Shown: positions 342-21,569 of the stretch, in pieces
Layout of the letters: the number at the start of each line of letters is the position of its first letter
How positions within the stretch are numbered: position 1 is the first letter of the stretch
Assembly (NCBI GenBank): GCA_025360125.1
Contig: JANYCU010000041.1
Location: forward strand, 1-64,000
Reading direction: 5' to 3'
DNA length: 64,000 bases
From: Armatimonadota bacterium
Lineage (GTDB): Bacteria; Armatimonadota; Fimbriimonadia; Fimbriimonadales; Fimbriimonadaceae
Program-made: the position numbers and the translations under genes
The notes under the pieces: generated by a model
What the model saw: only the letters and a program-made list of their open reading frames with translations
Database searches by the model: none
Told to the model about the DNA's origin: nothing

Positions 342-821
342 TTAATTTGGAATCTGGGACCAAGTATCTGGAAGGAAGTAGACAGGAATTGATTGGTCTC
401 TGATGTACCCTGGTACTTTTCTATCCCTTCTTTGGATAATGGAGATATATAAAATGCTCTTTTCTTGAAAGTTATAGACTCGAGATAGGGGAATGTTCCA
501 TTCAAAGTTAGAGTTTGGAGGCAATACAACCCAATCAGAATTATCTTCTACTGGTGCTTGATCGGCTCCGCTGTCGTATAGATTAGTTTTTCCATGACGA
601 GTTTTAAATCGAAATGTAAGACCAAAAAAATAAGTAGAAAAGGCAACTTGTTTAACAGACAAATTCCTAACGGAAATTTTAATTAGTCTCTGCTTTCCCC
701 GTGTCAGAGATATTTTCGAGCTGACATCGATTCGGTAGGTGGATGCTGGATCCGGCATTTCCAGCAACCTCACGGATTTGGCTGGCATTGCCGCGAGAAT
801 TGCCATAGTAATTATGTTCAT
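342..821 (-). CDS. Small predicted exported beta-rich protein behind the RHS gene
   Basis: This 159-residue protein begins with a short hydrophobic stretch (MNIITMAILAAMPAKS) that could be a weak signal peptide. The rest is rich in beta-forming residues. A segment near residues 98-125 (LPPNSNFEWNIPLSRVYNF) resembles the Pro-Gly strand and Leu-Ser-x-x-Tyr pattern found in small Ig-like or BsuPI-like inhibitor domains; this is a resemblance by eye, not a family assignment. The start codon lies 16 bases after the stop of the RHS gene, so it is very probably co-transcribed as the last gene of that operon. Its position directly behind an RHS protein with a toxin-like tip makes an immunity or partner role a reasonable inference. 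It could equally be an unrelated secreted protein. Confidence 0.65.
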   Translation of the reverse strand: MNIITMAILAAMPAKSVRLLEMPDPASTYRIDVSSKISLTRGKQRLIKISVRNLSVKQVAFSTYFFGLTFRFKTRHGKTNLYDSGADQAPVEDNSDWVVLPPNSNFEWNIPLSRVYNFQEKSILYISIIQRRDRKVPGYIRDQSIPVYFLPDTWSQIPN

Positions 822-837
822 GATTATTTTTGTCCTT

Positions 838-3800
838 TTAACGCTTGCAACATTTGGTGTTAGGCGGGATTGAGCCGCTAGCCTTTAAAATGCAACAAGC
901 AGATATCGTGTTACAAGTATTGGGCTCCGATTCTGGTCCATGTCCCAGTCCACAACAATGGAGTACTTCGTGAATTACAGATGTTGTCACGGGAATTGGT
1001 AATCCTAATGGATTGCAATTTCCGTTAGGATCATAAGCACATATGTATATATTTATTCCCGTAGGGCCCTTAATACAGCTTCCTTGTCCTCCGCCTTTGC
1101 TTGTCACGGTATATGCACATGGTGGGCTAGAACCACAGCAATCACCTTTTTGAAATTGTAAGGTGAAATTGGTACAAGTATATGTTTGCAGGCAAATTAA
1201 GTTTTTTCTTGTTATGGATGGACATTTATTGGTGCAGGATTTAATGCAATCATTAATATCTCCATAAACATCTTGGGATGTTCCATCCTTTGCGAGAAGA
1301 CCACTTACAATCCCACAAGCTTTGGAAATCGCATTGTTGGCATCAGTCTGTGTAATTGGTCTGTTGCCCCGCGGGTCAATAAGACGTATGACGTTTCCAT
1401 TGGCGTATACGTATGCGTCTTCGTCTGGCCAGAGCCGGTCTCTTGTGAGCCATACTTGAGTCTGATTGGCATAATGCCTTGCAATCATATAATGGCTGGC
1501 TCTTTGGAGGCCAGTCGTGCGGTAGCCGTGGGTGCCGACCCACGCATAGGCCGATCCGGCTGCGCCAGTAAGCCACATTGTCTTGCCATAGGGAAGATAT
1601 CTTGCGTCGTAGGTCTTGTTGAGAGACTGGTCGAGTTCGGCGGTGACCGAACCGAGATGGTCATTTACGTAGTCGTTGCGTGTTCCGCCAGCCTCGAACG
1701 CAGTGAGACGCCCTTTCGCAGAGTAGTAGCGTTTCGTATAACTTCCGCCTGTTACTTCACCAAAATACGTGGAGCCGTCCCAGAGCAGCGTCGTTACGGT
1801 GCCGACGACGTTCTCGGACCGTTTGTAGCCGTCTCCGTCGTAGGAGTACGTGGTCCTCGTACCGTCCTGGTTATAAACAGTCATTCGGTTTTCTTTGTCG
1901 TACGTCATGGTAGTGACGCTCGTGAGGAGTTGTATCCTCGTCATATTTCCATTGCTGTCGAACGTGTAAGTCGTCGTATTTCCGCCCGAAACCGACGTGA
2001 CAATTTGCCCGGCAAGGTCGTAAGTGTAGGTTGTCGCTGAGGTCTCGCCCGAGAACGTCTTGTTGCCAACCGCGTCGTAAGTGTACGTGAAATTTCCAGC
2101 GGTCGGAGCCGAGAGATTGGCGTTCGTAATTCGGTTGTTTGAGTCGTAAGTGTATGTTGTAAAAACCGATGTCCCGTCCTTAATCTTTGTAGGATTGCCT
2201 ACTCCGTCGTAGGTCATCGTCAGCTTTTGGTAGCCAAAGCCCGCAACGTTTCGGTCGAAGAGGCTCGTCACCTGGTTAAGGTCGTCATAAGCAATGGTTG
2301 TTATATAGCCCGATGCTCTAGTGATCGTGGTAACACGTCCAGCCGAGTCGAACGTATTGGTCGTCGTTCTAGCCGAAGTGTCCTGCCAACGGTCGATGAC
2401 TCCATCATCATTGAAGTGGTAGGTTGTAATTCCGCCAGATGGATCCGTAATATTAGTTCGCTTGCCAACCGCATCGTAGGCATACACTAAGGTAAAGGGA
2501 CCCGCGTACCCGACGGTGGTCACCCGGCTCAAAGCGTCATAGGCATAAGCTGTGGTCCCCGTCGAATCCATTAATGTCGTTCGGTTGCTCAAAGCGTCGT
2601 ACTGCATCGTGACGCGAGTAGCATCTGCATAGACAGAGCTTACCAGTCGGTCGAGCACATCGTACGTGTAGGTCGTAATGTCAGCGTTAGCGAATTGACG
2701 AGCAGACTGGGTTCCGGTTGACCCGTATAAGTAGGTGGTAATCCTTCCCGCTTGGTCGCAAATGCTCACCATTTCGTTTCGCACTGTGTACGCCATGGTT
2801 ATGACGCCGGAATCAGCAGACTGGATCCTCGTCTGGTTGCCAACCGCATCGTAGGTATAGGTTGTGCGGTTGCTGGAGGCATCTACTTGAGCCACAACAC
2901 GGTTAGCCGCATCGTATTGAAATGTCGTTATGTGCGAAAGAGGATCAGTAACCGCAACTCGGTTGAGTAAGTCGAAAACATTCGTGGTTACAAATCCCAG
3001 GGCATTTTTTGTTGTCCATCTTCGCCCAACTGAATCGTATGTAAATGTCGTTCTTGAACCCGTTGGTTCAACGAGAGCACTTGTTTGTCCAGCACCATCA
3101 TAGACAGTTGTGAAGCAATGCCCCAGCGGACTAACGTTTACAGTCTGTTGCCCTGCGGCATCATAGGTGTTTGTGCTAATCCGCTGTAGCGCATCCATGA
3201 CGGTTACAATCTGCCCTACATTGTCAAAGCTCATTGTCGTTCTGTTTCCGAAGGCGTTTATATGAGCGATAGCATCTCTTGCGTTGTAGACGGTTGTGGA
3301 GACATTGCCTTTTGCATCTTTGACGGTCTCTGGTCTTCCAGAACTGTCGTAACTATAGGTAGTTCTATTTCCTGCGGCATCGATGATTCCAATTCTTTGA
3401 TGGGATGCGTTGTAAACGGTTGTCGACACTCTACCAAGTGCATCGGTGACGGTCTCTGGATATCCCATGCTGTCGTAGCCGTAGGTTGTCACGAAGCCAA
3501 GCGGGTCCGTGGCTGTAATTCGATTGTTGAATCTTCCGTAGGTATAGCTGGTTCGATTTCCTCTAGCGTCGACGATGGCTTGCACTAAGCAGGTGTCGTA
3601 GATGTAACTTGTGACATTTCCTAGAGGATCTTTGGCGGTGAGTATATGGTCGCCTGCGTCGTAGGTGAAGGTGGTGGTGTTTCCGAGTTGGTTGGTAGTC
3701 ACAATATTGCGACCGAGCACATCGTAGGCATTGGTGACGACTCCTCCATCGGCGTACTGGACGCTTACGACGTTTCCGACCGAGTCCCAGTTGTAGGTTG

Positions 3801-5112
3801 TGGCAAATCCAAGGGGAGTAATTTGGCTTCGGGTCTGTCCGTCGGAGTCGTAGGTATAAGTCGTGACATAGCCAAGCGCGTCGGTCATTCTCACCAATCG
3901 ATGAGTACGACCTCCGGAATCGTATCCATACGTCGTAATATTGCCCAACGCGTTAGTGAGAGTGGTCAGATTGTTGAAGGCATCGTAGGCGTAAGTCGTC
4001 CGGCTGCCAAGTGGGTCAATGGAGACGACAGGAAGGGACTGGTCGTTGTAGACGACGCTCATCACCGAACCCGATGGCCTTGTCTCCGAATTTTTCAGGC
4101 GGTTAGCGTTGTAGGTGAGCGTAGAGCGGTAGCCCTCGGCACGGTCGATGGTTGTATTGTTGCCGTTCCCATCGTAGTTGTATGTGACCAAGGCTCCGGT
4201 CGGTTGAGTCTCAACGGTTTGGCTCGTGTTGTAGGTGTATGTCCAAACTGCAGATCCGGCGGCCATGCTGACGACCTTGCCACCTGAGTTGTAGGCGTAC
4301 GTCGTTTTGTAGCCTCTAGGGTCTTCAATGGTTTGCACCATTGTCGTTGTTGCTCCGGCCAACGCATATGTATATTTCGTTTGACAACCGAGCGGGGTTT
4401 GGACTTGGGTGAGATAGGCATCGTTGTCGTACGTCATCGTCCAACGGCGGTTGCCCCAGTCCTCAATAGCGCTGACCAGTGTAACGGTGACTTCGGCCAT
4501 GCCAATGACTTTCGTCATGTAGGTATAGGTTAATTTGTTCCCGCCGGGAACCGTGATGGTCTTTAAGAGACCCGTTTCTCCCGATGTTCCATAAGTGTAG
4601 GTCTGGGTGACGCCGTCCGCATCTACGACCCTGTCAATCTCATATTTCGACACGCTAGTATGCTGCTTGTACTTAATCTGCATACCCGTCGTGAAATATT
4701 CTGTGTATTCGTCGGGCGACGAGTCGTAGCTAAGGGTTGTGACATTTCCCGTGTTGCTGGAAGAGACGTATGTCGTTACAGTGCCTGAAGTCCCTGCGAC
4801 GCTAAAGTACTGCTCTGAGAAATCTCCTCGGCTAACCGTAGCCACACTACCAGGCGCAGTAATACTACTTCTGACCGAAGCAGATCGTCCGACTCCATAT
4901 TCAGTGAGGTTCGGATTTGCCGTGCTGTAAAAAAGGCTTATAGCCAAGTCGAACTTCTTTGCTTTGAGCTGAATCTCTGGGTCGATCTTCAGTTCGCCTG
5001 TCTCCAGGTTCGGCATTGGCCGATACGGATGCATCCGCTCCGTAACTTGTTCAATTCCCTGATGAATTGGGTCTTGAATACTAGTGGACGATGGGCTGGG
5101 AATTTCGAGCAT
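838..5112 (-). CDS. RHS/YD-repeat protein with Cys-rich metzincin-like C-terminal tip
   Basis: The product has 1424 residues. After about 100 non-repeated residues it carries dozens of YD repeats (pattern TYxYDxxGxxxxxxDxxG) up to about residue 1150, then an RHS-associated core (LPYGK...ARHY...DRLWPDEDAYVYANGN...LIDPRG) near 1180-1275. RHS proteins form hollow shells that enclose a C-terminal effector. The tip after about 1275 is unlike the repeats: it has 19 cysteines, several in pairs, and the motif HEVLHCCGLGH with H1381, E1382, H1385 and H1391, which fits the HExxHxxGxxH zinc site of metzincin peptidases. I infer a zinc-peptidase effector. No signal peptide is visible. The start is supported by GAGAAGAG just upstream; the preceding 99-residue gene ends only 9 bases before it. 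The DNA on the opposite strand shows long but meaningless open frames caused by the repeats. Confidence 0.93.
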   Translation of the reverse strand: MLEIPSPSSTSIQDPIHQGIEQVTERMHPYRPMPNLETGELKIDPEIQLKAKKFDLAISLFYSTANPNLTEYGVGRSASVRSSITAPGSVATVSRGDFSEQYFSVAGTSGTVTTYVSSSNTGNVTTLSYDSSPDEYTEYFTTGMQIKYKQHTSVSKYEIDRVVDADGVTQTYTYGTSGETGLLKTITVPGGNKLTYTYMTKVIGMAEVTVTLVSAIEDWGNRRWTMTYDNDAYLTQVQTPLGCQTKYTYALAGATTTMVQTIEDPRGYKTTYAYNSGGKVVSMAAGSAVWTYTYNTSQTVETQPTGALVTYNYDGNGNNTTIDRAEGYRSTLTYNANRLKNSETRPSGSVMSVVYNDQSLPVVSIDPLGSRTTYAYDAFNNLTTLTNALGNITTYGYDSGGRTHRLVRMTDALGYVTTYTYDSDGQTRSQITPLGFATTYNWDSVGNVVSVQYADGGVVTNAYDVLGRNIVTTNQLGNTTTFTYDAGDHILTAKDPLGNVTSYIYDTCLVQAIVDARGNRTSYTYGRFNNRITATDPLGFVTTYGYDSMGYPETVTDALGRVSTTVYNASHQRIGIIDAAGNRTTYSYDSSGRPETVKDAKGNVSTTVYNARDAIAHINAFGNRTTMSFDNVGQIVTVMDALQRISTNTYDAAGQQTVNVSPLGHCFTTVYDGAGQTSALVEPTGSRTTFTYDSVGRRWTTKNALGFVTTNVFDLLNRVAVTDPLSHITTFQYDAANRVVAQVDASSNRTTYTYDAVGNQTRIQSADSGVITMAYTVRNEMVSICDQAGRITTYLYGSTGTQSARQFANADITTYTYDVLDRLVSSVYADATRVTMQYDALSNRTTLMDSTGTTAYAYDALSRVTTVGYAGPFTLVYAYDAVGKRTNITDPSGGITTYHFNDDGVIDRWQDTSARTTTNTFDSAGRVTTITRASGYITTIAYDDLNQVTSLFDRNVAGFGYQKLTMTYDGVGNPTKIKDGTSVFTTYTYDSNNRITNANLSAPTAGNFTYTYDAVGNKTFSGETSATTYTYDLAGQIVTSVSGGNTTTYTFDSNGNMTRIQLLTSVTTMTYDKENRMTVYNQDGTRTTYSYDGDGYKRSENVVGTVTTLLWDGSTYFGEVTGGSYTKRYYSAKGRLTAFEAGGTRNDYVNDHLGSVTAELDQSLNKTYDARYLPYGKTMWLTGAAGSAYAWVGTHGYRTTGLQRASHYMIARHYANQTQVWLTRDRLWPDEDAYVYANGNVIRLIDPRGNRPITQTDANNAISKACGIVSGLLAKDGTSQDVYGDINDCIKSCTNKCPSITRKNLICLQTYTCTNFTLQFQKGDCCGSSPPCAYTVTSKGGGQGSCIKGPTGINIYICAYDPNGNCNPLGLPIPVTTSVIHEVLHCCGLGHGPESEPNTCNTISACCILKASGSIPPNTKCCKR

Positions 5113-5121
5113 AATCTCTTC

Positions 5122-5421
5122 TCATAAAGGGCCAGGATATATAATGGCCGGACAGGGGAGTAAACTGGGACTGGCTGGCCCGCAAGGAGGGGGCGCGGCA
5201 CCGCCTGGCAGTGGGAGGGGAGCCGACGAACCAGAGACGCAAGCACCGCCAGTACCGCCTACTACGGGATTGCAACCGCATCCGCCCCCCGGGGCTGGAC
5301 AACTGTCGCCTGCTGAATATGCCCCTCCTGGAGGTGCATGAGGCAGTGGACCACCACCATTAGAACTGCCGCCAGTTCCGGCTGCGTCGACGAAAGGAAC
5401 ACATTGAGCAACTACTACCAT
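5122..5421 (-). CDS. Gly/Pro/Cys-rich 99-residue small protein
   Basis: This protein starts two bases after the stop of the IscU-like gene and ends 9 bases before the RHS start, so it is embedded in that operon. It begins MVVVAQCVPFVDAAG, and from about residue 16 is almost entirely Gly, Pro, Ala, Ser and Cys, with seven or so cysteines (for example PGGGCGCNP). There is no signal peptide, membrane segment or recognisable fold. Such composition occurs in structural linkers, in secreted disordered proteins and in some precursors of modified peptides. A rival plus-strand frame covers part of the same DNA (5084-5341) but has no operon context. The tight spacing on both sides is the main support for the minus-strand reading. 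Function unknown. Confidence 0.6.
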   Translation of the reverse strand: MVVVAQCVPFVDAAGTGGSSNGGGPLPHAPPGGAYSAGDSCPAPGGGCGCNPVVGGTGGACVSGSSAPLPLPGGAAPPPCGPASPSLLPCPAIIYPGPL

Positions 5422-5423
5422 TT

Positions 5424-5786
5424 TTAATTTTCCCCAGCGTTTAGGGCATTTTGAAGGGCTTGGACTGCAAGATCCGCATAGTAGCCTTTGCCTTCTGGAA
5501 GACCACCGAGAACGACGATGAGATCGTGGGATTCAAGAAGAACAGCCTTATCCATGGTCCTACCTATTAACAGTTGAGCCGCCATGCTTGAAGCCGCAAC
5601 ACTTGAAGGACAGCCATTGCACTCGTAAGAAGCCTTCATAATGAGGTCGCCTTCTATTATGAGCCAAATTTGAACGTAAGGTCCGTCACCGGGAACTCCA
5701 CCAATTCCATGGTGGGTTGCATCTTCCATTCTTCCCGCGTTCCGCGGTGAGTGGACATGATCTGCTGCAATTGGACTGAGAACCAC
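5424..5786 (-). CDS. IscU/NifU-N-like iron-sulfur scaffold homolog, altered cysteines
   Basis: I choose the GTG at 5786 because AGGGGA lies 6 bases upstream and because the product (120 residues) then begins where IscU-family proteins begin, with SPIAADHVHSPRNAGRM. Other family features are GVPGDGPYVQIW, ECNGCPSSVAASSM and a C-terminal LGGLPEGKGYYADLAVQAL. IscU proteins assemble Fe-S clusters on three cysteines. Here the first (normally in a CGDP-type turn) is replaced by PGDG and the third (normally HCS or similar) by YYAD, leaving only a Cys-x-x-Cys pair in the central helix. It is therefore probably not a standard scaffold. It is the first gene of the operon that continues into the Gly/Cys-rich protein and the RHS gene, so a role in modifying or handling those Cys-rich products is possible but unproven. 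Confidence 0.8.
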   Translation of the reverse strand: MVLSPIAADHVHSPRNAGRMEDATHHGIGGVPGDGPYVQIWLIIEGDLIMKASYECNGCPSSVAASSMAAQLLIGRTMDKAVLLESHDLIVVLGGLPEGKGYYADLAVQALQNALNAGEN

Positions 5787-6075: not shown

Positions 6076-6624
6076 CTAACGGCGAGTTTCAAACAAGAGT
6101 CCCGGCACTTCACCATTAGCGATCCTCGAAACAAGCTTGTCGATGCTTGGGTTGTGGGTCGCAAAAGTCGGCTTGTTAGCTGGAAGCCGCCTCGAAATCG
6201 CGAGATCACTACTGGCATCCCACTCGTATCGCCATAGTCGAGCAATGCGAAACGGTTCCTGATCAAGGTTCTCTCCAAGGTGATGAAAGAACCCGCCCGA
6301 AAAAACGACAATCCTGGGCGCTCCCCAGCGGAGCGGAACAACGGACGCTCTTTGGTGAGCCACGTTATGTATCCCACAGACGAGTACCTTTCCTGAAAGA
6401 ACGATCTGCTCAGCCTTCCGTTCGATCTCTGCAAGTTGAGATTCGGAATGGATTTCTGGGCCAAATGTTTCGGGGATATGCATATGTCGAGATTGCAAGA
6501 GCCTGGTGTTTCCATATAGCCAAAGTCCAGCTGGTTCATAGAATCCAGGTTCAAGATTGAATGGTGCGGTACGGCGAGGTGGCGGAGCCTTTGCTCCACG
6601 TTGGACTGATTCAAGGTTCGTCAC
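6076..6624 (-). CDS. DprA/SLOG-like Rossmann protein (tentative)
   Basis: The 182-residue product has a central beta-alpha region (VLVCGIHNVAHQRASVVPL, then PRIVVFSGGF) that resembles the nucleotide-binding Rossmann part of DprA/LOG-type proteins, which bind single-stranded DNA or nucleotides. It is shorter than full DprA, and the family call rests on local similarity only. The start is GTG at 6624; the start codon lies inside a short palindrome that is also found upstream of the ArdC-like gene, so the true start could lie slightly further in. It stands alone on the minus strand. Nearby ArdC-like and recombinase genes suggest it belongs to mobile DNA, where such proteins could protect or process incoming single-stranded DNA. 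Confidence 0.6.
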   Translation of the reverse strand: MTNLESVQRGAKAPPPRRTAPFNLEPGFYEPAGLWLYGNTRLLQSRHMHIPETFGPEIHSESQLAEIERKAEQIVLSGKVLVCGIHNVAHQRASVVPLRWGAPRIVVFSGGFFHHLGENLDQEPFRIARLWRYEWDASSDLAISRRLPANKPTFATHNPSIDKLVSRIANGEVPGLLFETRR

Positions 6625-6811: not shown

Positions 6812-7072
6812 TCAATTTTTCTTCGATTTATGTTTGGTGGATTTTGGTTTCGCGACCTTGCTATAGACTGAGCATTTGCCGCCACTATTGCAATATTTGC
6901 AATATTTACAGTTTTTACACGCTCGGCAAGTTCCTTGACTGAGTGGTCTGCATGTCGCTCTTGAAGAAAGTAGTTTATTGCAACACAGTCCAGATTTCGG
7001 AGATTTTGGAGGATAGCCAAAGACAGTCATGGCAAGGGCAAAAGCGATCATCACGATTAGGAACACTTTCAT
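6812..7072 (-). CDS. Small secreted Cys-rich protein
   Basis: The 86-residue product has a clear signal peptide (MKVFLIVMIAFALAMTVFG) followed by a mature part of about 65 residues with ten cysteines, many in a CxxC pattern (CRACKNCKYCKYCNSGGKC), and a Lys-rich tail ending SKKN. This could be a disulfide-stabilised peptide or a metal-binding protein. No family is recognised. No ribosome site is seen; TATAAT lies 8 bases before the ATG, which would fit a leaderless transcript. The next gene upstream runs the other way from 7350. Confidence 0.65.
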   Translation of the reverse strand: MKVFLIVMIAFALAMTVFGYPPKSPKSGLCCNKLLSSRATCRPLSQGTCRACKNCKYCKYCNSGGKCSVYSKVAKPKSTKHKSKKN

Positions 7073-7622: not shown

Positions 7623-8516
7623 TCACACTGTGGCGAGGATCGGAGGATTGGCATTAAGTGGATACTCGATGCCCTTGATGTAGTCAGTAGCCTTTTGAGC
7701 TTGGGCGGCGGCAATAACGAGAGCTTTTGGATCACTTCGCAAAGAATTCATCCAAGAGTTGATGTACGCAACCGAATTGTCATGGATTGAGTTATCCAAG
7801 GCAACAGTCGCACAACAGAATGATGAGGTCAGTTCTGCGACCAATTCTTCTCGACTGTACTCTTCTGATCCGAAATGAACTTTACCAGCTACGCCGGACC
7901 GCTTCAACCTCTTTTCGTGGCCCGTTGAGTGACCAAGCTCGTGAAAGAGAGTGGCATAGTATTCATCGATCGAAGAGAACGAATCCAGCTTTGGAATACG
8001 GACCAAGTCAGATTCGGGGTGATACCAAGCCTGGTGACCCTTTTCCTCAATGAACGGTGGATTCGGCATCGAGCAAACCAGTGCGTCCGCGCGTCCAATT
8101 CGATGTTCATCGGTCAAGTGTCCCTGGGTAGGGATTGGCGCAACCTCAATCCCTTTAACCTGCTCAACATTGAACACGTTAAAGTATCGAAGTATCGGTG
8201 CTTGTCTCTTCCAAGAGTCTTCGTCGTCTTCAGATGGCTTCTTTTCTGGAAACTTCCAGAAGACCACCATTGTTGACTGCTCACCCTGCTTGACTTTACC
8301 TCCAAGTTCTTGAGCCTGCTTGAAGGTGAGCCAACGGTGGTCGGCAAATGGACTCAGCCCGAGAAGCAATATATTGACTCCTCGGTACGGTCGATTGGTT
8401 GTCGCGTTGCAAGGCAAGAGCGTGTTCACATTCCAAGGCTTCCGCCAGGGAACCGTGCCTCTCTTCAAGGATTCGATTACCTTGGCAGTGACGATTTCGT
8501 AGAGCGATGTGCTCAA
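7623..8516 (-). CDS. ArdC-like antirestriction protein (ssDNA-binding plus zincin)
   Basis: The 297-residue product has the ArdC layout. Residues 1-120 match the N-terminal ssDNA-binding domain (SLKRGTVPWRKPW, RPYRGVNILLL, QGEQSTMVVFWKF). The second half is a zincin-like peptidase domain with FHELGHSTGH, where H192, E193, H196 and H200 can bind zinc, followed by REELVAELTSSF. ArdC proteins of plasmids and integrative elements protect incoming DNA from restriction. The start is TTG at 8516, backed by AAGGGG upstream. A short 17-codon frame begins at a GTG inside the upstream palindrome and ends overlapping this TTG, which could be a leader. Confidence 0.88.
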   Translation of the reverse strand: MSTSLYEIVTAKVIESLKRGTVPWRKPWNVNTLLPCNATTNRPYRGVNILLLGLSPFADHRWLTFKQAQELGGKVKQGEQSTMVVFWKFPEKKPSEDDEDSWKRQAPILRYFNVFNVEQVKGIEVAPIPTQGHLTDEHRIGRADALVCSMPNPPFIEEKGHQAWYHPESDLVRIPKLDSFSSIDEYYATLFHELGHSTGHEKRLKRSGVAGKVHFGSEEYSREELVAELTSSFCCATVALDNSIHDNSVAYINSWMNSLRSDPKALVIAAAQAQKATDYIKGIEYPLNANPPILATV

Positions 8517-9611: not shown

Positions 9612-11906
9612 ATGATTTTAACTTGTAGCGATTTGCACCGTGATCACTTCTGTCCCGGAACCTTCAGTGATATAGATCGCTTTTGCCCGATCTGTGGTTC
9701 TCGCAACGTCAGTCTCCGCCTTAATGCCAATTCTCCTATCATCGTTGAGCCGGGAAAGCAGAATAATCTGAATATTAGTGCAACACCCCGCCTGCCTTTA
9801 AGCGAAAAACTAACGGTTCATCTCGAACTGGTTCCAAACATTTCCGGGGATGCTAGGTTGAAAATCGAGTCTTCCACGGCAACTTTCACGCAGAGTCGAG
9901 AAATCATACTCGACACGATCCCCTTGAAAGAAGGAGACGAATATCGAGGAAGGCTTCGGGTTTCAATAGAAGACTCTATTCGGGGACCTGAATCTGGGTC
10001 ATGGACGACGCGGTCGCCAGAGGTCTTTTCGATCGAAATTTACGTGCGTTGCCAATCTCAATTCGCGTCTATTTATCCTGAAATTGTTCTTTTGACGGGT
10101 CATACTAACAGCTCCTTACTCAGCATCGAGAGTAAGAGAGGCTTTCGAGATTTAGATATAGCTGTCGAGGGCGACTTCGTACTTCGCGAGATTGATGAAT
10201 CTGCGAGAGACTTTCAAAGGCGATCTTATCAGCTTGCTGCAGGTGAGGGCGTCTTTGGACTTCTGGGAACCCTGACAATTAGTTCTCCATACGTGCCAGA
10301 CGGTGTTAAAAAGGTTCCTGTTGTTCGGCTATCGACATCCTCTGAATCAGACTCAATTGAATGGGTCGTGGCAATTGACTTTGGCACGAGCGGTACATCG
10401 ATTTACCTACGGAACCGATTCGCCGGAACTGCAGGTCGAAAAATTGGCAATTTTGACAGGGCGACATCAGACCTCTATATTCCAGGTCCCAATAACGCTT
10501 ATTGGGAATTTTCAAATGCAGTTGACCAGATTGACGAGTCTGATCAGAGGAGGCGACACGTTTGGTCGGGTCTTAAAACCAGACTTAGGGCAGCCGAAAT
10601 CGACATTATCCATGGGCACACGATCGTCGAAGTACTTACTTGGTATTTCACGGAACTTCGTAAGATCATTGTGAAAGAACTTGGTAAGAATGATATTTTG
10701 GAATCTGACAAGGATCGAGTTGCGTTCGTATTTACCGTCCCCGCACTTGATCAAGGACAAGAATATCATCTTTACATGGACAGGTTTAATGAAATATTGA
10801 AGGAGTCTGGATTCGAACAATTTGGCATTGTAACAACAATGTTGGAGCCAGAGGCCGCTCTGATTTGGTGTGTAACCGACCAGAACGCTTCCGCACGCTC
10901 TGGACTCACGTCAGCCGGAGTCGGGCAGGCAGCAAACGTAATGCTTGTTGACAGTGGTGCAGGAACAACGGACGTGACTGTCACCCGGTTGGATCGTGCG
11001 GGAGGTGAGATCAATTTCTCGGAGACTCGTACATTTGGTGTTTATTTCAACGAATTATTTCACAAGGGTGAAGTTGCAAATTCCAGTTTTGGGGGAGACG
11101 TTTCAACGGCTGCCTTAGCAACGAGATTCATTGACCAAGGAATTAGCTCTAGGTTTGCTGATTCCTTTCTTGAAGAATATGGTGGGGCCCGAATTGAAGA
11201 TGAATCAACAGCCGAGAACGGTCTGTTACCTACCTACCGGAGAGAGAACTGGTTAACGCGTTTTCCAGTCTTACGCCATCGAATGGAGAGGATTAAGTTT
11301 GATTTTTTGCAGTATCGCAGAGGATACACTTTCTTTTTTTCCGGCAAGAATTTCAATTTGGATGCACAGCTGGCTGACTCTGTGTTTTCGGATCTTGCTG
11401 AAACCTTGAAAATCGAACTCAGAACATCACTATCCCAGCTGGACCTCGATCCAGATCACGTAGTATGCATAGGGGGAAACAGCCTAATTGGCCCGTATCG
11501 CAATGCAGCTGAGCTGGCGGTTGATCGCAACGCGGAGATATCAACGGAGAAGAGTGTATTTACAGCCGATGAAATCCGTCTCGCGGTGGTCAAGGGTGCC
11601 TTGAGACGGTTTGACAGGCACTTCGATGCCTCACTATATGACCTCGAATGTCGAATTGGAAATCAGCGAAGACCGCTTCTCCAGAAAGGGCGGCTTGGTC
11701 GCACAGCGAACTTTATTGTTCCTCCCGGCAGTGCAACATTAGAGTTTTTCGTTCTTACTGAATTTGGTTCCGGAGTCCTTGAATCCTTGGAGATCGATTG
11801 TTCCTTTCCTACAAGAGTCGAAATCAAATGTTCTGGGCAGTCAGTGAAAGTTTTGCAAATGAACGGCGATGAATTATATAAAGAATATTTGGTCAACCTT
11901 CCATGA
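9612..11906 (+). CDS. Actin/Hsp70-fold ATPase with N-terminal zinc ribbon
   Basis: The 764-residue product has three parts. Residues 1-33 contain Cys5, Cys14, Cys25 and Cys28 (CPICGSRN), a probable zinc ribbon. Residues about 35-245 are beta-rich and look like one or two Ig-type domains. Residues about 250-690 are an actin/Hsp70/StbA-type ATPase: phosphate-1 loop DFGTSGTS at D256, phosphate-2 loop VDSGAGTTD at D447, and adenosine motif CIGGNSLIG at 619-626. A short beta tail closes the protein. It is cytoplasmic and has no Hsp70 substrate-binding domain of usual type, so a chaperone role is unlikely; an ATP-driven filament or switch is more plausible. The stop overlaps the next start by four bases, showing translational coupling. 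This is the first large gene of the system. Confidence 0.9.
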   Translation: MILTCSDLHRDHFCPGTFSDIDRFCPICGSRNVSLRLNANSPIIVEPGKQNNLNISATPRLPLSEKLTVHLELVPNISGDARLKIESSTATFTQSREIILDTIPLKEGDEYRGRLRVSIEDSIRGPESGSWTTRSPEVFSIEIYVRCQSQFASIYPEIVLLTGHTNSSLLSIESKRGFRDLDIAVEGDFVLREIDESARDFQRRSYQLAAGEGVFGLLGTLTISSPYVPDGVKKVPVVRLSTSSESDSIEWVVAIDFGTSGTSIYLRNRFAGTAGRKIGNFDRATSDLYIPGPNNAYWEFSNAVDQIDESDQRRRHVWSGLKTRLRAAEIDIIHGHTIVEVLTWYFTELRKIIVKELGKNDILESDKDRVAFVFTVPALDQGQEYHLYMDRFNEILKESGFEQFGIVTTMLEPEAALIWCVTDQNASARSGLTSAGVGQAANVMLVDSGAGTTDVTVTRLDRAGGEINFSETRTFGVYFNELFHKGEVANSSFGGDVSTAALATRFIDQGISSRFADSFLEEYGGARIEDESTAENGLLPTYRRENWLTRFPVLRHRMERIKFDFLQYRRGYTFFFSGKNFNLDAQLADSVFSDLAETLKIELRTSLSQLDLDPDHVVCIGGNSLIGPYRNAAELAVDRNAEISTEKSVFTADEIRLAVVKGALRRFDRHFDASLYDLECRIGNQRRPLLQKGRLGRTANFIVPPGSATLEFFVLTEFGSGVLESLEIDCSFPTRVEIKCSGQSVKVLQMNGDELYKEYLVNLP

Positions 11907-12766
11907 AAAGACGTTTTGAACTTTTGCAGGCGGCCCTTTTTGTTTTGGAAGGGCTCAACCAGAGTATAGATTTTTCAGATCAAGACTTACTTGTCTTCGA
12001 CCAGCTTCGAAAAATGTTGCAATTCGAAACTGGAGAGGACAGTTCCCTGTGGGGTTCAATCGGTGAGTCAATCAATCCTATTGCAGAGAGATTTCGGTAC
12101 GACGAATCAGAAGATTCAAAGTCAGACAAATCTATTGCATTTGGTCTTCTGCTTTGGATTGTTATGGAAGTTCAAGCGGCCGACAACAACGATCGACTTT
12201 GGTTGCAATCCATAAGATGGATGAAGTCGAAAATTATTCCCACGAACCAACTCGATCTCCTGGGTGATTTCGAAGGATCAACGTCTGAACTCTGCGCCAA
12301 GGTCATTGATATTTCATATCAAGAAATCAGCAAAAAAGACGAAACGGGTTCGAATTTCATCACTTCACTGATGTTGCGACCACTGATCATTTGGAATACT
12401 CCTGGGTTATCCCTAAAGAACCGAGTTGATGCCCTTTGCTTCGAGCTCGCAAGACCAATGCCACGTTTGGTCATGGAAGAATCTGTGGGTTCACTTGAAT
12501 GGAGCCTGTGGCACCTGATTCAGAAAACAATACAAACTGTTGTGAATGAACTCAAAAATGATAAGTTTGAGTTCATTTGGCCAATCCCTGGGGTTGATAA
12601 GTATTCGATCCCTGAAATGGACGAGCGTGACCCAGAAATTGCGAGCACCGAATCAATGAACGGATTAATTGCTGAAGTTAAGAAGCTTGGGTACAGGGAG
12701 GGCACATTGGTAGTCGAAAAGGCGTTAGTAAGGGTTTTCCGCAGCATGCCCGACGTGAACCTGTGA
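11903..12766 (+). CDS. Helical protein of the actin/tubulin system
   Basis: The 287-residue product is mainly alpha-helical by eye, with acidic patches and no cysteine motif, signal peptide or membrane segment. I recognise no family. The ATG overlaps the stop of the ATPase gene by four bases, and its own stop overlaps the next start by four, so it is made together with its neighbours and probably works in a complex with them. A partner or regulator of the actin-like ATPase is the simplest guess. Confidence 0.8.
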   Translation: MKRRFELLQAALFVLEGLNQSIDFSDQDLLVFDQLRKMLQFETGEDSSLWGSIGESINPIAERFRYDESEDSKSDKSIAFGLLLWIVMEVQAADNNDRLWLQSIRWMKSKIIPTNQLDLLGDFEGSTSELCAKVIDISYQEISKKDETGSNFITSLMLRPLIIWNTPGLSLKNRVDALCFELARPMPRLVMEESVGSLEWSLWHLIQKTIQTVVNELKNDKFEFIWPIPGVDKYSIPEMDERDPEIASTESMNGLIAEVKKLGYREGTLVVEKALVRVFRSMPDVNL

Positions 12767-14115
12767 TCACAAATTCATGCCTCAATTGTAAAAATGTGCC
12801 CGATCAAGGGGACCATTTTTGTAAGAATTGCGGTCATCCACTGGTTCAAAAGTGTCCAGTATGTGACTTCGAGATTGAAGTGAAGCTTCACGTCCACGTC
12901 TGCCCCTCTTGTAAATCTCTGTTGAAAATATGCCAAGGTGGATTCTGCGGAAAAGCATTTGCCCCCAGCAAGAGTCAGTGCGATTGCGCTATGGCAGTCC
13001 CGCTGGAGCTCGTTTCTCTGTGTTATCTTTCAGGCATTGGCAATGAACGGAGCAATAAGGTCGGAACCGGACTTACTATTCCGGAGAATTCGGAAGTTAT
13101 CGGCGAATGGCTGAAAGAATTCGAGACTCCAATTTCCGGCCACACCTTCGCAGGCACAGTTGGCGCACAATCATTCATCGCCGACTCAAATACATTGAGG
13201 TTCAACAGACCTACGCGAACATACAAAGTTCCGCACCCGTTCACCACAATCGAAAAACCATTGGCGAGTGACGGCAACCAAATTTTTGCCGCGACAACCG
13301 AAGGTATTTACGACATACACCGTGACAAATACATCCAAAAATGCGACCTTAGCTTTCTTGGCTTAGGCCCATGCATTGACAGCAAAGCCTTGTTCTTGGC
13401 GAAGAGAGAAACTCCCGATATGCTCGAAATAATTGAATATTCGGGAACGCCCATCGCCCTGGTCCAAATGTCGGAACCGATATTGGATGTGCTTGTGGCT
13501 TCTAGTCTTCGATACCTAGTTGTCGGTGTCGAGAGGATTTTTGATCTTCATGCTCAGGATGGCGAATGGACTAGCGTAAACAGCTTCCCGAAGCCGCTCC
13601 TGACTTTTTATAGCCTCCATACAAACCTTTCATTGACTTCAAGTGACGGTCGAGTCTCTGGGGTGCAAGTTCAACAGTTCTGCCTGGAAAGCGGCGAACT
13701 TACGAGTAGTCCTATTTTAGAGCAAAGAGGACTTCGTGAGCTTATAGCAGTTGGTGAGAATGTCTTGCTGTTTGATAAGGATTCAGTTTCTAAAATCTCA
13801 TCGCCGGGCCTGGTCAGCCAAATCCGAACGTTTCCGGGAGAAACAATTATTGACGAATGTTGCATTGAATCTCATGGGCTTCTAAACATATTTATCGTTA
13901 CTCAATCTAGTCTGACGGAATTTGGAATACACTGCCTATTTGTAAGTGGGAAGTCGGTAAGCCTCGGGAAATTTGAGTCAGACTTGCCGCCGATGATTCA
14001 CCCTTCAGTAGACGGGCTTCATGTTATACTCAGGTTTCGTGATCGAATCAGGACATTCCGCCACGTTTATCACGATGGGAGCAAGAGACAGGATGACAGT
14101 ACTTTCAAAGATTAA
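12763..14115 (+). CDS. Multi-zinc-ribbon protein with probable beta-propeller
   Basis: The start is GTG at 12763. Residues 4-75 contain at least four CxxC pairs in succession (CLNCKN, CKNCGH, CPVCDF, CPSCKS) and a further cysteine-rich stretch ending CDCA, the pattern of tandem double-zinc ribbons. The remaining 370 residues are beta-rich with repeated strands of the type seen in WD/PQQ-like propellers (for example IFAATTEGIYDI, LRYLVVGVERIFDL), so I infer a propeller scaffold. No membrane segment is present. It is translationally coupled to both neighbours. A scaffold or sensor role within the system fits, and no enzymatic motif is visible. Confidence 0.82.
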   Translation: MITNSCLNCKNVPDQGDHFCKNCGHPLVQKCPVCDFEIEVKLHVHVCPSCKSLLKICQGGFCGKAFAPSKSQCDCAMAVPLELVSLCYLSGIGNERSNKVGTGLTIPENSEVIGEWLKEFETPISGHTFAGTVGAQSFIADSNTLRFNRPTRTYKVPHPFTTIEKPLASDGNQIFAATTEGIYDIHRDKYIQKCDLSFLGLGPCIDSKALFLAKRETPDMLEIIEYSGTPIALVQMSEPILDVLVASSLRYLVVGVERIFDLHAQDGEWTSVNSFPKPLLTFYSLHTNLSLTSSDGRVSGVQVQQFCLESGELTSSPILEQRGLRELIAVGENVLLFDKDSVSKISSPGLVSQIRTFPGETIIDECCIESHGLLNIFIVTQSSLTEFGIHCLFVSGKSVSLGKFESDLPPMIHPSVDGLHVILRFRDRIRTFRHVYHDGSKRQDDSTFKD

Positions 14116-15307
14116 ATATGTTCTTGCTTGTTGTATAGCGCTCTTAACCTACTCCATGTCATGTGCGCAGAGTGTTGGCCCAGTACAGGCCTCAACGTGG
14201 ATTGCAAAGCAGATTTTGGATGGCTATCCCGAAACGGGCCAGTCTCAAGCTGAGTTGCTCGGTAGCCGAAATTGGCACTTCGTGTTTCTTTTCAACAGCT
14301 CTCAAGCCGCGGACATGAGTGCGTATACAGATTTTTCTCGCACGATGACCCTTAAGTTTCTGCGAGACCGCTTGGAAGAATCCCAAAAGAATGGCTCCAA
14401 ACACAAGTTTTCATTCTTTCCCTATCAACTTGACCTCTATAAGGGCAATGAGTCTCTACAAGGGCTTGATCTAAATAGAGAGAACGTCGATCGGTTAGAA
14501 TCACTTTTTCCGACCAGGCCGTTTCAGTTGAGAGGTGACGCTGTCTCTCCGTATCCCAAGCTTGGAGGACATGATAACGAGGGTGTGAGACACGATCTCG
14601 AAGAACTACTTGGCACACCGAATGCACCGATGCCGATCATAATTGTTCAAATAACAAACTATGGCATTTCTGAAGCGCCTGGAGATATCGCGGAAGACAG
14701 CCAAAAGCGCGGCGGGCTTTCTGTTGCAGCTGATGAAAAAAGTGGGTATCAGAAATATCCAAACATAGGCTCTCCGTTCTTGACAGATCCTCCGGCCTCA
14801 GGCAAGAAGCCATTTGAAGTCCATGTACTCATCTTTGGCCCAGCTCAAATAGACAAAGTCGTGGTTCATTCGTCTTCAATGCCCGGCATCTTGAAAACTC
14901 TGGGAATCGGAGTTTCACTTCTGGTTGGGCTTGGACTTGTGGTCTGGATTCTGTCGCGACTACGTAATAGTACTGGCGGATTTGCCTCAATTTCCTACTC
15001 CATAACAATTGGGAATCATGTTCCTATCGTTATCGAAAAGGGAGAAAAGCTCCAGGTAGTTGGTCAGGATTACAAGGGATTGAGGGAGCAGAAGATCTTT
15101 GAATGGCAAGTGGCAGGAGTTTCGCCGTCTCTACTTTTTGAAATTTCAAATGAAAAAGAGCTTGAGGTTATTTCAAGGGTAGGTACGATTAGCTTTTTGA
15201 GCCACTCCGACAACGGAAAGAAGCTATCGGAGGGCGAGAACGAAATAAATTTTAAGGACGGCTCATTCGCGCGAAATTTGAAAATAATCATACGGCGAAT
15301 GGACTAA
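14093..15307 (+). CDS. Exported, membrane-anchored protein with degenerate vWA-like domain
   Basis: I start at the ATG at 14093, giving 404 residues, because a hydrophobic signal (VLACCIALLTYSMSCA) then lies at the N-terminus; a longer in-frame start exists at 14021. The external part (about 30-270) has a vWA-like layout, with a strand HFVFLFNSSQAADMS where a MIDAS DxSxS would be and a later strand MPIIIVQITNYG, but the metal-binding residues are not kept. One transmembrane helix lies near residues 272-292 (GVSLLVGLGLVVWIL), and a cytoplasmic beta-rich domain of about 100 residues follows. It overlaps the preceding gene by 23 bases. It probably links the cytoplasmic parts of the system to the outside. 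Confidence 0.8.
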   Translation: MTVLSKIKYVLACCIALLTYSMSCAQSVGPVQASTWIAKQILDGYPETGQSQAELLGSRNWHFVFLFNSSQAADMSAYTDFSRTMTLKFLRDRLEESQKNGSKHKFSFFPYQLDLYKGNESLQGLDLNRENVDRLESLFPTRPFQLRGDAVSPYPKLGGHDNEGVRHDLEELLGTPNAPMPIIIVQITNYGISEAPGDIAEDSQKRGGLSVAADEKSGYQKYPNIGSPFLTDPPASGKKPFEVHVLIFGPAQIDKVVVHSSSMPGILKTLGIGVSLLVGLGLVVWILSRLRNSTGGFASISYSITIGNHVPIVIEKGEKLQVVGQDYKGLREQKIFEWQVAGVSPSLLFEISNEKELEVISRVGTISFLSHSDNGKKLSEGENEINFKDGSFARNLKIIIRRMD

Positions 15308-15319
15308 GCGGGGGGACAT

Positions 15320-18300
15320 ATGGCAGTTAAAACAATAGTTGTTGGTATCGGCTCGGAAGGCTACAAAACGGCCGAGATTCTTGTTAAGAAATTGGAGTCA
15401 GAGCATGGCTCTCTTGACCGCGTCCCTTGGATTAAATTTGTAATTCTGGAAACTGAAAATACAAGTGCTAGACTTCTTGGAAGAAAGGGTCTTTCAATAC
15501 ATATTGGCCTCAATCAGACTGACTTCCAGGAAGTGAAGCGAAGCCCTGAACGATTTGATCCAGATATTGACTTAACTACATGGGCTGGCAACGCAGATAT
15601 ATTCGGAGGCTCACCTCCTCTTGAGGGTGCAAACAATCAAAGACCATTGGGTCGACTCTGCTTTATGCATCCAAAGAATTTCGGGTCATTCTGTAATGCA
15701 ATTCAATCCCTCACAACGGAATTACTGGGCTTGGACCCTGAAAAAACTAATGCATTAAGAGGAACCAAAGCTGAAGAGGATCCAATTAAATTTGTTCAAA
15801 TTGAAAATCAACATCGTCAAAAGAAGGACAAAATCAATATCTTCGTTGTTGGAACTCTCACGGGAGGAACTGGGAGCGGATGTTTTGTTGACGTTGGTTA
15901 CGCCCTTCGAAAGCTTCCCTTCCTCAAAGATCAAACTCAATTGGCGGCTATTCTGGGAATACCCAATGCTGGTCATGGAGATTTAATTCATAACTATAAT
16001 GCGGCGGCGGCATTGACAGAGCTCAACCACTATAGCTATCCGAATGCAAAGTATAAGGCTCGCTTTGGATTGCGGTCGCTCTTTGACATCAATACCGAGC
16101 TACGTTCAGTCGCTCCATTCGACTATGCCTTCATTCAGCAGCCTAAATCTATTGGACCAGACCAGATTCAGATTATGCGGATGGCGGCTTCAGAATTTAT
16201 CAATTTAGAAGCGGTTGAAGACGAAGGTGGCAAACTTATTGCAAATTGTACAAATGCAATTGGACACTTTGGAGGAGAGCTTGATCGCAAAGGCTGTCCG
16301 ATGAGATTTTTTAGCCTGGGCGCTTCAGTCATTGAATATCCCGCCGATCACATCATTGAAGCTTGTGCTTCGAAAATTGTCGGTTCGGCTATGGGGCGAA
16401 TCTTGATCCACGCGCCGCTAAGTGATTACGAGTTTGATTCTTTCTACAGAGACCAAGTTAAAATTGATCCCGAAAAATTCCAGAATGCGTTTCTCGAAAC
16501 TGAAGCCTGTCGAAAACTGATCAAGAATTTGAGCGATCAGGCAGTACAAGCAGCAGAATCCGCAGAAAGAGGCGAAACCTCCAGCATTGGTTCCTGGAGA
16601 CGTAAAGTTGAGGGACTCTCAATGTTTGGTACAAATTACGCTGGCGAGTATTATGAATCGCTCGAAGCTGCGGCAAAGGAAGTTTCTTCAAGGGTTCTTG
16701 ATTCAATAAAGCAAGAACTTTCAAATGCCTTGAGACAACCAGGTAGGGGTCCCTTGTGGGTTGCTGAGCTTCTTGACAAAATTGAAACTCGCGCGACAGT
16801 TAGAATTGCTGAGATCGACCAAAAGGATGAAATTGGCGCAAGGTCCTTGGCGAGATTAGAGAGCAGTGCTCTAAATTCAATCGAAAGCAAAATGGGCCAA
16901 AAAGGAAAGGGTTGCGCTAATTTGTTTGGAAAAAATCCCAGGAAAGATGCTTCAAACGAAATGAAGAGTCGATCCTCGACATACATTTCAACTAACTTAC
17001 GGGTCTCCTCAGAGCGCCCTGAGAAGGAACTTCTGGTAAAGCTCGTCGATTTGGCGAAGTTAGTACGAGGCAGAATCAATAACCATGAGCATGGATTGAC
17101 AATCTGGGTTCAGAAGCTCAAATCCAAGATGGATAAAAACTATGCGGATAAGAACACCCGCGGCCCGGTTGTAAGTGGTGTTGCCCTTTTCGAGACTGAA
17201 CGAACTGTGCCAGCAGACTATCAGAGGTGCATCCGAAATGATGCAGAAGAAAAATCGGCCGAAGAAATTATTCTTCGATGGGTAAGGCCCTACTTAGAGG
17301 ACGCATTGAAGGACCGAGATCTGAGTAGATTTGATAGATATTGCGATGTTGAGGAGTCAGATTTGGTTGCTGCGCGCCGGGTGCTTTGGCCAATATTTTC
17401 GCCATTGAAGAATATCAAAGTTGAGGATCGGCTAGTTGGTGGATATTCGGATTGGGAATCTAAGATTGATTTGGCTGCTCGAGCAGGACAAGCATTTATC
17501 GACGTCTCGTTTACCGACAATCAATTCAACCAACCTGTAAATGACTCCAAAAGACTCCCGAGCTATGTCTTTTCGAAAAATCCGGATGCAATAGGTGAGT
17601 CTGAGGCGGGCAAAGTTGCAACAAAACTTAAATCGACTACTTTTGCGCCATCGCCAGGAGGGAGTGATCAAACCATTCTTTTCATGCAGGCACTTGGGAT
17701 TTTCAGCCTGTACAGCATAAATGGTGTAAGTGGCTGGCAGGAACATGTCGAGCCAAAGTTGATGACTCGAATGGACGTAGTTTGGCGATCCCTTGACGGA
17801 AGGCCGTCGGACCCTCACCAGGCCTACCATATTGCGTTAATTCTTGCAGGGATACCACTTCAGGTTTTCAACCGCGACAAATCGGGGACTTTGAATTTTC
17901 AAACAGATCCTTCACCTGGAAAACCTGGTCGATTGATCCCTTTTAGCCTTGAACTTACTGAAGCATCTCACAAGTTGGCTATAGACAAAATTTTAGCCGC
18001 TCAGGTTGAAGCAAAGGTAAAGATCGCAATAAAAGATACTGGTTTGAAGGATAGCATTGCTGCTATTGTCAAGGCTTCCGAACATGTCACGGCCCTGAAC
18101 CTGACCTTTGATGGTTTTGCTATTGGTGGAGAAGAATACTTCAATCGGGTTATGAACCTCTTGGAGCGCTATCCCGAATCCGAGGGCATGATCACGGCCC
18201 TCTATCCCGGTTATCTGCAAGACGATCTGGACAGCTATAAGCGACCTGATCACAAAGAAGATTCGTTAAAAAATGGTTGGTTCTGTCCTCATTGCAACTG

Positions 18301-18388
18301 TGTCTTGGCATTGCCAACGGAGAAACCAGAGGTGGTCATTCCTGCTATTTGTCGTAGCTGTGGCTGGAAACTTCGCTGGGGGGCATAG
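15320..18388 (+). CDS. Tubulin/FtsZ-like GTPase with C-terminal zinc ribbon
   Basis: The 1022-residue product starts with a Rossmann-type loop (VVGIGSEGYKTAEIL) and has the tubulin signature loop as GTLTGGTGSG at residues 178-187. This layout matches the large bacterial tubulin-like family often listed as Tubulin_2, which has been noted near vWA-type genes. Conserved FtsZ-like elements continue to about residue 400. The middle and end are long helical regions with unknown role, and the last 45 residues carry two CxxC pairs (CPHCNC and CRSCGW), a zinc ribbon. The start follows GGGGGGAC at suitable distance. FtsZ-type proteins polymerise with GTP; whether this one does cannot be told from sequence. 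It is the largest member of the operon. Confidence 0.9.
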   Translation: MAVKTIVVGIGSEGYKTAEILVKKLESEHGSLDRVPWIKFVILETENTSARLLGRKGLSIHIGLNQTDFQEVKRSPERFDPDIDLTTWAGNADIFGGSPPLEGANNQRPLGRLCFMHPKNFGSFCNAIQSLTTELLGLDPEKTNALRGTKAEEDPIKFVQIENQHRQKKDKINIFVVGTLTGGTGSGCFVDVGYALRKLPFLKDQTQLAAILGIPNAGHGDLIHNYNAAAALTELNHYSYPNAKYKARFGLRSLFDINTELRSVAPFDYAFIQQPKSIGPDQIQIMRMAASEFINLEAVEDEGGKLIANCTNAIGHFGGELDRKGCPMRFFSLGASVIEYPADHIIEACASKIVGSAMGRILIHAPLSDYEFDSFYRDQVKIDPEKFQNAFLETEACRKLIKNLSDQAVQAAESAERGETSSIGSWRRKVEGLSMFGTNYAGEYYESLEAAAKEVSSRVLDSIKQELSNALRQPGRGPLWVAELLDKIETRATVRIAEIDQKDEIGARSLARLESSALNSIESKMGQKGKGCANLFGKNPRKDASNEMKSRSSTYISTNLRVSSERPEKELLVKLVDLAKLVRGRINNHEHGLTIWVQKLKSKMDKNYADKNTRGPVVSGVALFETERTVPADYQRCIRNDAEEKSAEEIILRWVRPYLEDALKDRDLSRFDRYCDVEESDLVAARRVLWPIFSPLKNIKVEDRLVGGYSDWESKIDLAARAGQAFIDVSFTDNQFNQPVNDSKRLPSYVFSKNPDAIGESEAGKVATKLKSTTFAPSPGGSDQTILFMQALGIFSLYSINGVSGWQEHVEPKLMTRMDVVWRSLDGRPSDPHQAYHIALILAGIPLQVFNRDKSGTLNFQTDPSPGKPGRLIPFSLELTEASHKLAIDKILAAQVEAKVKIAIKDTGLKDSIAAIVKASEHVTALNLTFDGFAIGGEEYFNRVMNLLERYPESEGMITALYPGYLQDDLDSYKRPDHKEDSLKNGWFCPHCNCVLALPTEKPEVVIPAICRSCGWKLRWGA

Positions 18389-18394
18389 TTTCTC

Positions 18395-19975: not shown

Positions 19976-20678
19976 AAAAAGGAGAAGAGCTGGCTTTAAG
20001 CCAAATCCATACGTGGTGTTTGCAGATCTAGCGATCTCCCTCTTTTTCATTAGTACTGTTGTAGGGTTTTCGAATATGATTGCAAGTAGCCAAGCGCTTG
20101 CGGCAGCCTTCAGGACAGAGAGACAAATTAAACTGTGCGACCGAGTCTTGAGCGGCTTACAAACACTTTATCCCGGTGCTGAAATTAGAAAGGTTGTTGG
20201 GGAACATTACATTCTGCGCAAAAACGGTGATGTTCTGGCTGAAATATGGGTAAATGCAAGCTATCTTCGAATTCAGGTCATGCAGTCGCTTTGGACAAAA
20301 GGAAAAGCTCAGTACGACTCCGAAAGTGTTAATGAGATTTACAAACGTCTTGCACTTGATCTTGTTCCAGATGCTCCGGCATTTTCATACATATATTCAC
20401 ACGGGATTGTAGAGCCAAGCGAGCAGTTAAACGAATCCGACGCCGTCGCCGTGTCTCGCCAAAGGGCGGACATCGTTTTGTCACTTCTCAGAGGTACGGA
20501 CTTAATTGGCCCAATGGGAGTTCCTGATCAAAAAATTAATTCCTCAGGACATCCATGCGTACCGGCGAAGAACGCGATAGCCTTTGGCACAGGCTCAACT
20601 CTCTATTTCATAAATAAGCCTGTTGGCCGGGTCGATCTACTGCTCTTTTTTACCGATGAAACAAAATCAACGAATTAA
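19962..20678 (+). CDS. MotB/ZorB-like stator partner
   Basis: The start is GTG with GAGGGGAAATC upstream. The 238-residue product has a basic N-terminus (SLRKRRRAG), then one membrane helix at about residues 17-37 (NPYVVFADLAISLFFIST) with D22 at its entrance, the place of the proton-carrying aspartate in MotB and ZorB. The periplasmic part has a motif VSRQRADIVLSLL that matches the OmpA-like peptidoglycan-binding domain (usual form LSxxRAxxVxxxL). It pairs with the preceding MotA/ZorA-like gene. By analogy, it would anchor the motor to the cell wall and carry protons. Short compared with flagellar MotB but similar in size to ZorB. Confidence 0.87.
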   Translation: MTSLRKRRRAGFKPNPYVVFADLAISLFFISTVVGFSNMIASSQALAAAFRTERQIKLCDRVLSGLQTLYPGAEIRKVVGEHYILRKNGDVLAEIWVNASYLRIQVMQSLWTKGKAQYDSESVNEIYKRLALDLVPDAPAFSYIYSHGIVEPSEQLNESDAVAVSRQRADIVLSLLRGTDLIGPMGVPDQKINSSGHPCVPAKNAIAFGTGSTLYFINKPVGRVDLLLFFTDETKSTN

Positions 20679-21526: not shown

Positions 21527-21569
21527 AGAGATTTCCGCTAGACTTAAGGAAATCCTAATCGGCATTGAC

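Follow-up and report, generated by a model that had tools for sequence, protein, structure and literature searches.

A conserved gene cassette of Armatimonadota joins an IscU-fold protein and a cysteine-rich peptide to RHS proteins, with a possible role in effector capsule maturation

We analyzed a stretch of 64,000 nucleotides (hereafter, the window; positions 1 to 64,000 of contig JANYCU010000041.1, assembly GCA_025360125.1) from a member of the Fimbriimonadaceae (Armatimonadota), in which a gene for a protein of the IscU/NifU_N fold and a gene for a Gly/Pro/Cys-rich small peptide precede an RHS/YD-repeat gene. It is nearly certain that the IscU-like, peptide and RHS genes form a real conserved unit. 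As a tentative interpretation, in which our confidence falls somewhat short of even, the locus would be one copy of a conserved cassette for the maturation of RHS capsules, with the IscU-like protein acting as a carrier or adaptor for cysteines. The main features of the locus are the following.

5424-5786, minus strand: IscU/NifU_N-fold gene, 120 aa, GTG start preceded by AGGGG.
5122-5421, minus strand: Gly/Pro/Cys-rich small peptide gene, 99 aa, ATG start, 7 Cys.
838-5112, minus strand: RHS/YD-repeat gene, 1424 aa, ATG start; N-terminal module (DPEI..LKA), YD repeats, RHS core and Cys-rich tip in a single chain.
4861-5040, minus strand: RHS N-terminal module, specific to IscU-linked RHS proteins by profile occurrence across 61 genomes.
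4384-4386, minus strand: codon of RHS Cys243 (PLGC), invariant in 44/44 cassette RHS bodies.
3589-3591, minus strand: codon of RHS Cys508, conserved in 38/44 cassette RHS bodies.
838-1365, minus strand: RHS tip of 175 aa with 19 Cys and a zincin motif (HEVLHCCGLGH); its fold weakly matches zinc peptidases.

The gaps of 2 nt between the IscU-like and peptide genes (5422-5423) and of 9 nt between the peptide and RHS genes (5113-5121) agree with a first-pass annotation made from the sequence, which had suggested a cysteine- or metal-handling role for this trio and had named its conservation in other genomes as a point to check. The trio is indeed present across the phylum. Searches of 61 and 291 genomes, and about 90 loci read in detail, reveal a common gene order of multidomain glycosyltransferase, IscU-like gene, peptide, RHS body and RHS tip. 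Counting unique family members across the phylum and leaving out those at contig ends, RHS is found immediately downstream in 56/67 members and the glycosyltransferase immediately upstream in 33/68; among the members with no RHS gene directly downstream, L045, L051 and L075 have an RHS tip gene and L032 a convergent RHS gene. Six NifU_N genes, without exception of the RHS-linked IscU-like type, are present in the window genome (4.13 Mb, 98.6% complete). Four of the five copies outside the window locus share its gene order with peptide and RHS body (two bodies being truncated by contig ends); in the fifth, on contig 41, the RHS gene lies on the opposite strand. The trio proposed in the first-pass annotation is therefore conserved as a unit, but that proposal left out the glycosyltransferase heading about half of the cassettes, the five further copies in the same genome, and the frequent splitting of the RHS gene.

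Co-occurrence points in the same direction. The RHS-type IscU-like gene was found in 22 of the 61 related genomes; the N-domain of the glycosyltransferase occurs in 20/22 of these versus 0/39 of the genomes without the gene (Fisher test; p-value: 4e-14), and the RHS N-module in 21/22 versus 0/39 (p-value: 2e-15), in tests that ignore kinship between genomes. RHS-like candidates in general have a wider spread among genomes than either the glycosyltransferase or the RHS N-module. The conserved synteny, the phyletic co-occurrence and the dN/dS values given below thus place the cassette beyond chance. Matches from outside the phylum (L085-L088) lie in other contexts with no RHS, and three of them (L085, L087, L088) retain the three cluster cysteines. 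Loci L074, L078, L080 and L084, on JADZEW01 contigs titled 'Methanoregulaceae archaeon isolate SJ84', are Fimbriimonadaceae cassettes that match genome G030 of the window's family, and the archaeal label looks wrong. At L032 (window genome G000, C41, minus strand) a Ser/Gly/Cys-rich peptide with a Hint-like C-terminus, two GT9-like genes (by eye), an RHS body and a tip are convergent with a plus-strand pair of glycosyltransferase and IscU-like genes.

The IscU-like protein of the window matches NifU_N (PF01592) in Pfam with 64 bits (E-value 1.9e-17) and stays under the NCBIfam equivalog cut-offs for NifU_clost (73.5 vs 187.9 bits), IscU (39.5 vs 192.4) and SufU (37.9 vs 92.5). An AlphaFold2 model based on the 69-sequence family alignment (pLDDT 96.4) has the IscU fold, with a Z-score of 21.1 to the IscU of A. 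fulgidus (4eb5). Aligned with canonical IscU, the window copy has D at C37, P at D39 and Y at both H105 and C106; it keeps only the C63 equivalent and the LPxxK motif (LPEGK), so that the earlier description of an IscU relative lacking two of three cluster cysteines is accurate. Across the family, C63 is present in 69/69 rows of the alignment and C106 in 33, C37 is replaced (mostly by D/E) in all but two rows, one of which is canonical, D39 has mostly become P, and H105 and C106 are retained by about half of the members. In the phylogenetic tree a branch with support 100/99 splits the canonical IscU/NifU scaffolds from the IscU-like clade, within which the window copy belongs to a lineage apart from the other copies of its own genome, near L041 and L125. 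The family thus resembles the N-terminal Fe-S scaffold of IscU/NifU in fold, C63 and LPxxK, and differs from it in C37, D39 and C106, in forming its own clade, and in its linkage to RHS. Because C37 and D39 are lost, and C106 is often lost as well, a classical Fe-S scaffold role is unlikely for this family.

Replacement of a housekeeping SufU was rejected as a role for the gene, as canonical scaffold genes are about equally frequent whether or not a genome has the RHS-type gene, and genes of SufB/SufD type are also present. In the window genome no canonical SufU/IscU was found alongside its SufB/SufD-type genes, and several related genomes likewise have no SufU/IscU. The single conserved cysteine could act as a persulfide carrier in the manner of SufE/CsdE, bringing sulfur to the peptide. 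SufE/CsdE are among the fold matches of the model, C63 of IscU is one documented acceptor from IscS, and Lys103 of IscU contacts IscS (PMC2854127); this lysine, in the motif that appears in IscU as LPPVK and is recognized by HscA (PMC7585200), is retained in the LPxxK of the IscU-like protein. Neither a desulfurase gene nor a sulfur-inserting enzyme was seen in the cassettes, and we consider sulfur delivery most unlikely.

The window peptide has no Pfam match, and G, P, C and S make up 59% of its residues. Its relatives usually start on or overlapping the stop codon of the IscU-like gene and share, in 35/42 peptides, the signature C-x(3-12)-[LVIM]P-x(8-35)-C near the C-terminus, the terminal Cys often being part of Cys-Pro; in 2000 composition-preserving shuffles the maximum was 16 of 42. 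In close pairs dN lies well under dS (e.g., 0.053 vs 0.857), with dN/dS of about 0.04-0.2 where dS is measurable, indicating that the small peptide is a real gene family under purifying selection. A Gly/Pro/Cys-rich segment is fused ahead of RHS in L143, L147, L157, L141 and L151, which shows that the peptide belongs with the RHS N-terminus, mostly as a separate chain and sometimes fused. Hint-like domains occur on the peptide in two loci, with a sub-threshold PT-HINT match in L050 and only weak matches in L048. Purifying selection, signature and fusions together show a conserved small frame in a trio that is not strain-specific, the two matters on which the first-pass annotation had staked its proposal.

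The window RHS protein matches RHS_repeat in Pfam (E-value 6e-84) and Rhs_assc_core with 33.9 bits versus a cut-off of 32.5, and has the YD repeats, RHS core and variable tip that characterize RHS polymorphic toxins. Elsewhere in the family the gene is frequently split into a body and a separate tip gene. At L046, L047, L090, L125 and L135, one body is followed by an array of two or three tip genes, every one of them with an RHS core of its own, an apparent stock of exchangeable tips. The annotated cysteine richness of both the small product (7 Cys in 99 aa) and the window tip (19 Cys in 175 residues) holds. The motif of this tip fits HExxHxxGxxH, and its model, of moderate quality (pLDDT 68.5), has deuterolysin-type zinc peptidases as top matches (Z-scores 7-8), so that a zinc peptidase activity is a lead only.

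Such motifs bring in the possibility that the IscU-like protein binds a metal or cluster and loads it into a Cys-rich or HExxH tip. The IscU fold, the retention of C106 and H105 in about half of the family, and the HExxH of some tips would fit this explanation, but C37 and D39 are gone nearly family-wide, H105 and C106 are gone from the window copy, several tips are Cys-poor, and housekeeping SufU-type genes do not come and go with the IscU-like gene. HExxH is found in only 13/63 IscU-linked tips, a count on which loading of the tip was rejected as the general role; overall, metal loading seems to us decidedly unlikely. The metal half of the original suggestion is accordingly weak, with nearly all metal ligands lost from the window copy, whereas the cysteine half is consistent with the invariant cysteine of the IscU-like protein, the odd cysteine numbers of peptides and tips described next, and the two conserved cysteines of the RHS body.

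The cysteine pattern, noticed post hoc, is one of parity. An odd number of Cys was counted in 39/42 peptides (30/33 clusters; p-value: 7e-7; Hint cysteines excluded), with five as the modal count, and in 61/74 Cys-rich tips (47/59 clusters; p-value: 2.6e-6), where 50% would be expected in both cases. Fused tips are odd in 13/13 cases, whereas parity over the whole open reading frame (ORF) is weaker for split tips (39/61 odd) because some called ORFs take in extra upstream or core cysteines. The median Cys content of IscU-linked tips is 7.5 per 100 residues; in the window genome, the cassette-type or truncated RHS tips are richer in Cys than the Cys-poor tips of four conventional RHS loci, with no overlap between the groups, which were assigned by inspection (p-value: 8e-5). 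The six bodies that have no second conserved RHS cysteine all come from outside the window's order. The simplest reading would be one spare Cys each on peptide and tip, available for inter-chain disulfides or for modification.

A scan of one copy of the glycosyltransferase gave three GT2 matches plus TPRs; for the SunS-like domain of another copy, the best solved-structure match is GmaR (E-value 1.8e-21), and SunS is matched as well (E-value 3.9e-14). The window genome encodes four such enzymes, three adjoining IscU-like genes and a solitary one on contig 22; none adjoins the window cassette. GmaR glycosylates proteins or peptides. The same is known of SunS (PMC6405829), and the co-occurrence of the enzyme with the cassette points to protein or peptide glycosylation. 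The likeness to GmaR lies in the SunS-like GT2 domain; the cassette enzyme has extra GT2 and TPR domains, and no flagellar context was seen around it.

One alternative is that the enzyme decorates the RHS shell or tip as a surface glycoprotein, the IscU-like protein being a non-catalytic adaptor and the cysteines structural only. The best match, GmaR, is a flagellin glycosyltransferase, co-occurrence with the RHS N-module is near-perfect, and two GT9-like genes (by eye) lie between the Hint-peptide and RHS at L032. Decoration alone leaves both the odd parity and the invariant IscU-like Cys unexplained, and we judge it rather unlikely. In a different alternative, the SunS-like enzyme turns the small peptide into the actual product of the cassette, a glycosylated peptide or bacteriocin, and RHS is only a co-encoded weapon or carrier. 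Glycocins have five Cys, with S-glucose on one (PMC6405829), and the cassettes share with SunA/SunS a SunS/GmaR-type domain beside a small peptide of odd, often five-Cys composition; the Hint-like modules on peptides of two relatives could free them. The cassette differs from glycocin biosynthesis in the several GT2 domains and TPRs of its enzyme, in the IscU-like partner, and in a peptide tied to RHS and fused to it at several loci. Moreover, no double-Gly leader site, SunT-type transporter/peptidase or thioredoxin gene appeared in the ORF lists around the cassettes, which were not searched by family, and the lack of enrichment of the S-glycosylation motif reported below also speaks against this explanation, which we regard as unlikely.

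Judged from gene arrangement and sequence, the glycosyltransferase, the exapted IscU-fold protein, the peptide and the RHS body, whose tip is often a gene of its own, make up one module, which probably serves the maturation of a Cys-rich effector capsule. In RHS shells of known structure, a plug closes the N-terminus (PMC8765631). Since the peptide lies ahead of the RHS N-terminus, with fusion to it at some loci, it would be a plug or anchor part of the shell. The IscU-like protein would no longer build clusters; as a cytosolic carrier or adaptor, it would use its invariant cysteine (C59) and IscU docking surface to hold the peptide's spare Cys, perhaps also that of the tip, and offer it to the glycosyltransferase, which, by its family, would modify the peptide or RHS. 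After export, the odd cysteines may be S-glycosylated, or disulfide-linked between chains to the two conserved RHS-body cysteines, and plug, shell and Cys-rich tip would thereby be held together until release. The window copy would rely on a glycosyltransferase encoded elsewhere in the genome. A more specific version, in which the capsule is stapled by disulfides from three chains, plug peptide and tip each locking a spare Cys to a conserved shell Cys while the former Fe-S scaffold acts before export as a thiol chaperone with the glycosyltransferase, strikes us as rather doubtful.

Several observations weigh against a cysteine-carrying maturation cassette. Half of the cassettes have no glycosyltransferase directly upstream. 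The parity was a post hoc finding, and it does not extend to longer peptides, which come mostly from other Armatimonadota classes and are odd in 5/8 cases. The S-glycosylation motif Gly-Cys-Gly-Gly/Ser shows no enrichment among the peptides (5/42, against 3.6 expected from shuffles) and is absent from that of the window, so the acceptor may be Ser/Thr or RHS itself. No export route was identified, searches of the window genome for the contractile sheath (PF04984) and VgrG/GPD (PF05954) being empty; delivery through a type VI secretion system (T6SS) or another contractile injection system is not supported.

With the RHS/YD-repeat polymorphic toxins (T6SS Rhs, Tc BC, WapA) the cassette has in common the YD repeats, RHS core, variable C-terminal tips and arrays of spare tip genes. 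It differs in that the N-terminal segment is usually a separate Cys-rich peptide and core plus tip usually a separate gene, in its cysteine richness, in its IscU-like and glycosyltransferase partners, and in the absence of any VgrG or sheath found. The module therefore belongs to the RHS world as an apparently undescribed variant: no published description was found in the literature on RHS with NifU/IscU, on Armatimonadota RHS or on Fimbriimonas glycocins, and the consulted portion of the 2012 polymorphic-toxin survey mentions neither NifU nor IscU. In genomic terms it is a consistent example of an IscU-fold protein that left iron-sulfur metabolism for apparent effector maturation, and it brings with it a family of multidomain protein glycosyltransferases, GmaR/SunS-like, for which a candidate substrate can be named. 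It also points to the assembly of RHS capsules out of separate chains, in a phylum that has seen hardly any experiments and where the injection-machine genes tested for were not found. The odd-cysteine rule gives concrete predictions.

On the downstream side of the window locus lies one further gene.

342-821, minus strand: 159-aa gene, 16 nt past the RHS stop; candidate immunity or inhibitor protein from position alone, with no family match in Pfam and NCBIfam scans.

Upstream of the IscU-like gene, 6076-6624 (minus strand) encodes a 182-aa protein of unassigned family with a close homologue in L034 (reverse-strand ORF 3192-3795), on a different contig, where a conventional RHS gene follows it directly; this family is possibly a second RHS-associated gene. 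Further upstream, the product of an 86-aa ORF at 6812-7072 (minus strand) begins like a signal peptide and has about 10 cysteines. Among the products of a dense operon at 9612-20678 (plus strand) are a zinc-ribbon protein, a tubulin-like protein of 1022 aa (PF13809) and a MotA/ExbB protein weakly similar to ZorA. Its first gene encodes a 764-aa protein that by eye resembles an actin/Hsp70-type ATPase and has no Pfam match; the operon may be an uncharacterized defense or motor system. An ArdC gene (7623-8516), an Abi_C-domain protein (21519-22466) and a large serine recombinase (23102-24757) suggest a mobile or defense region.
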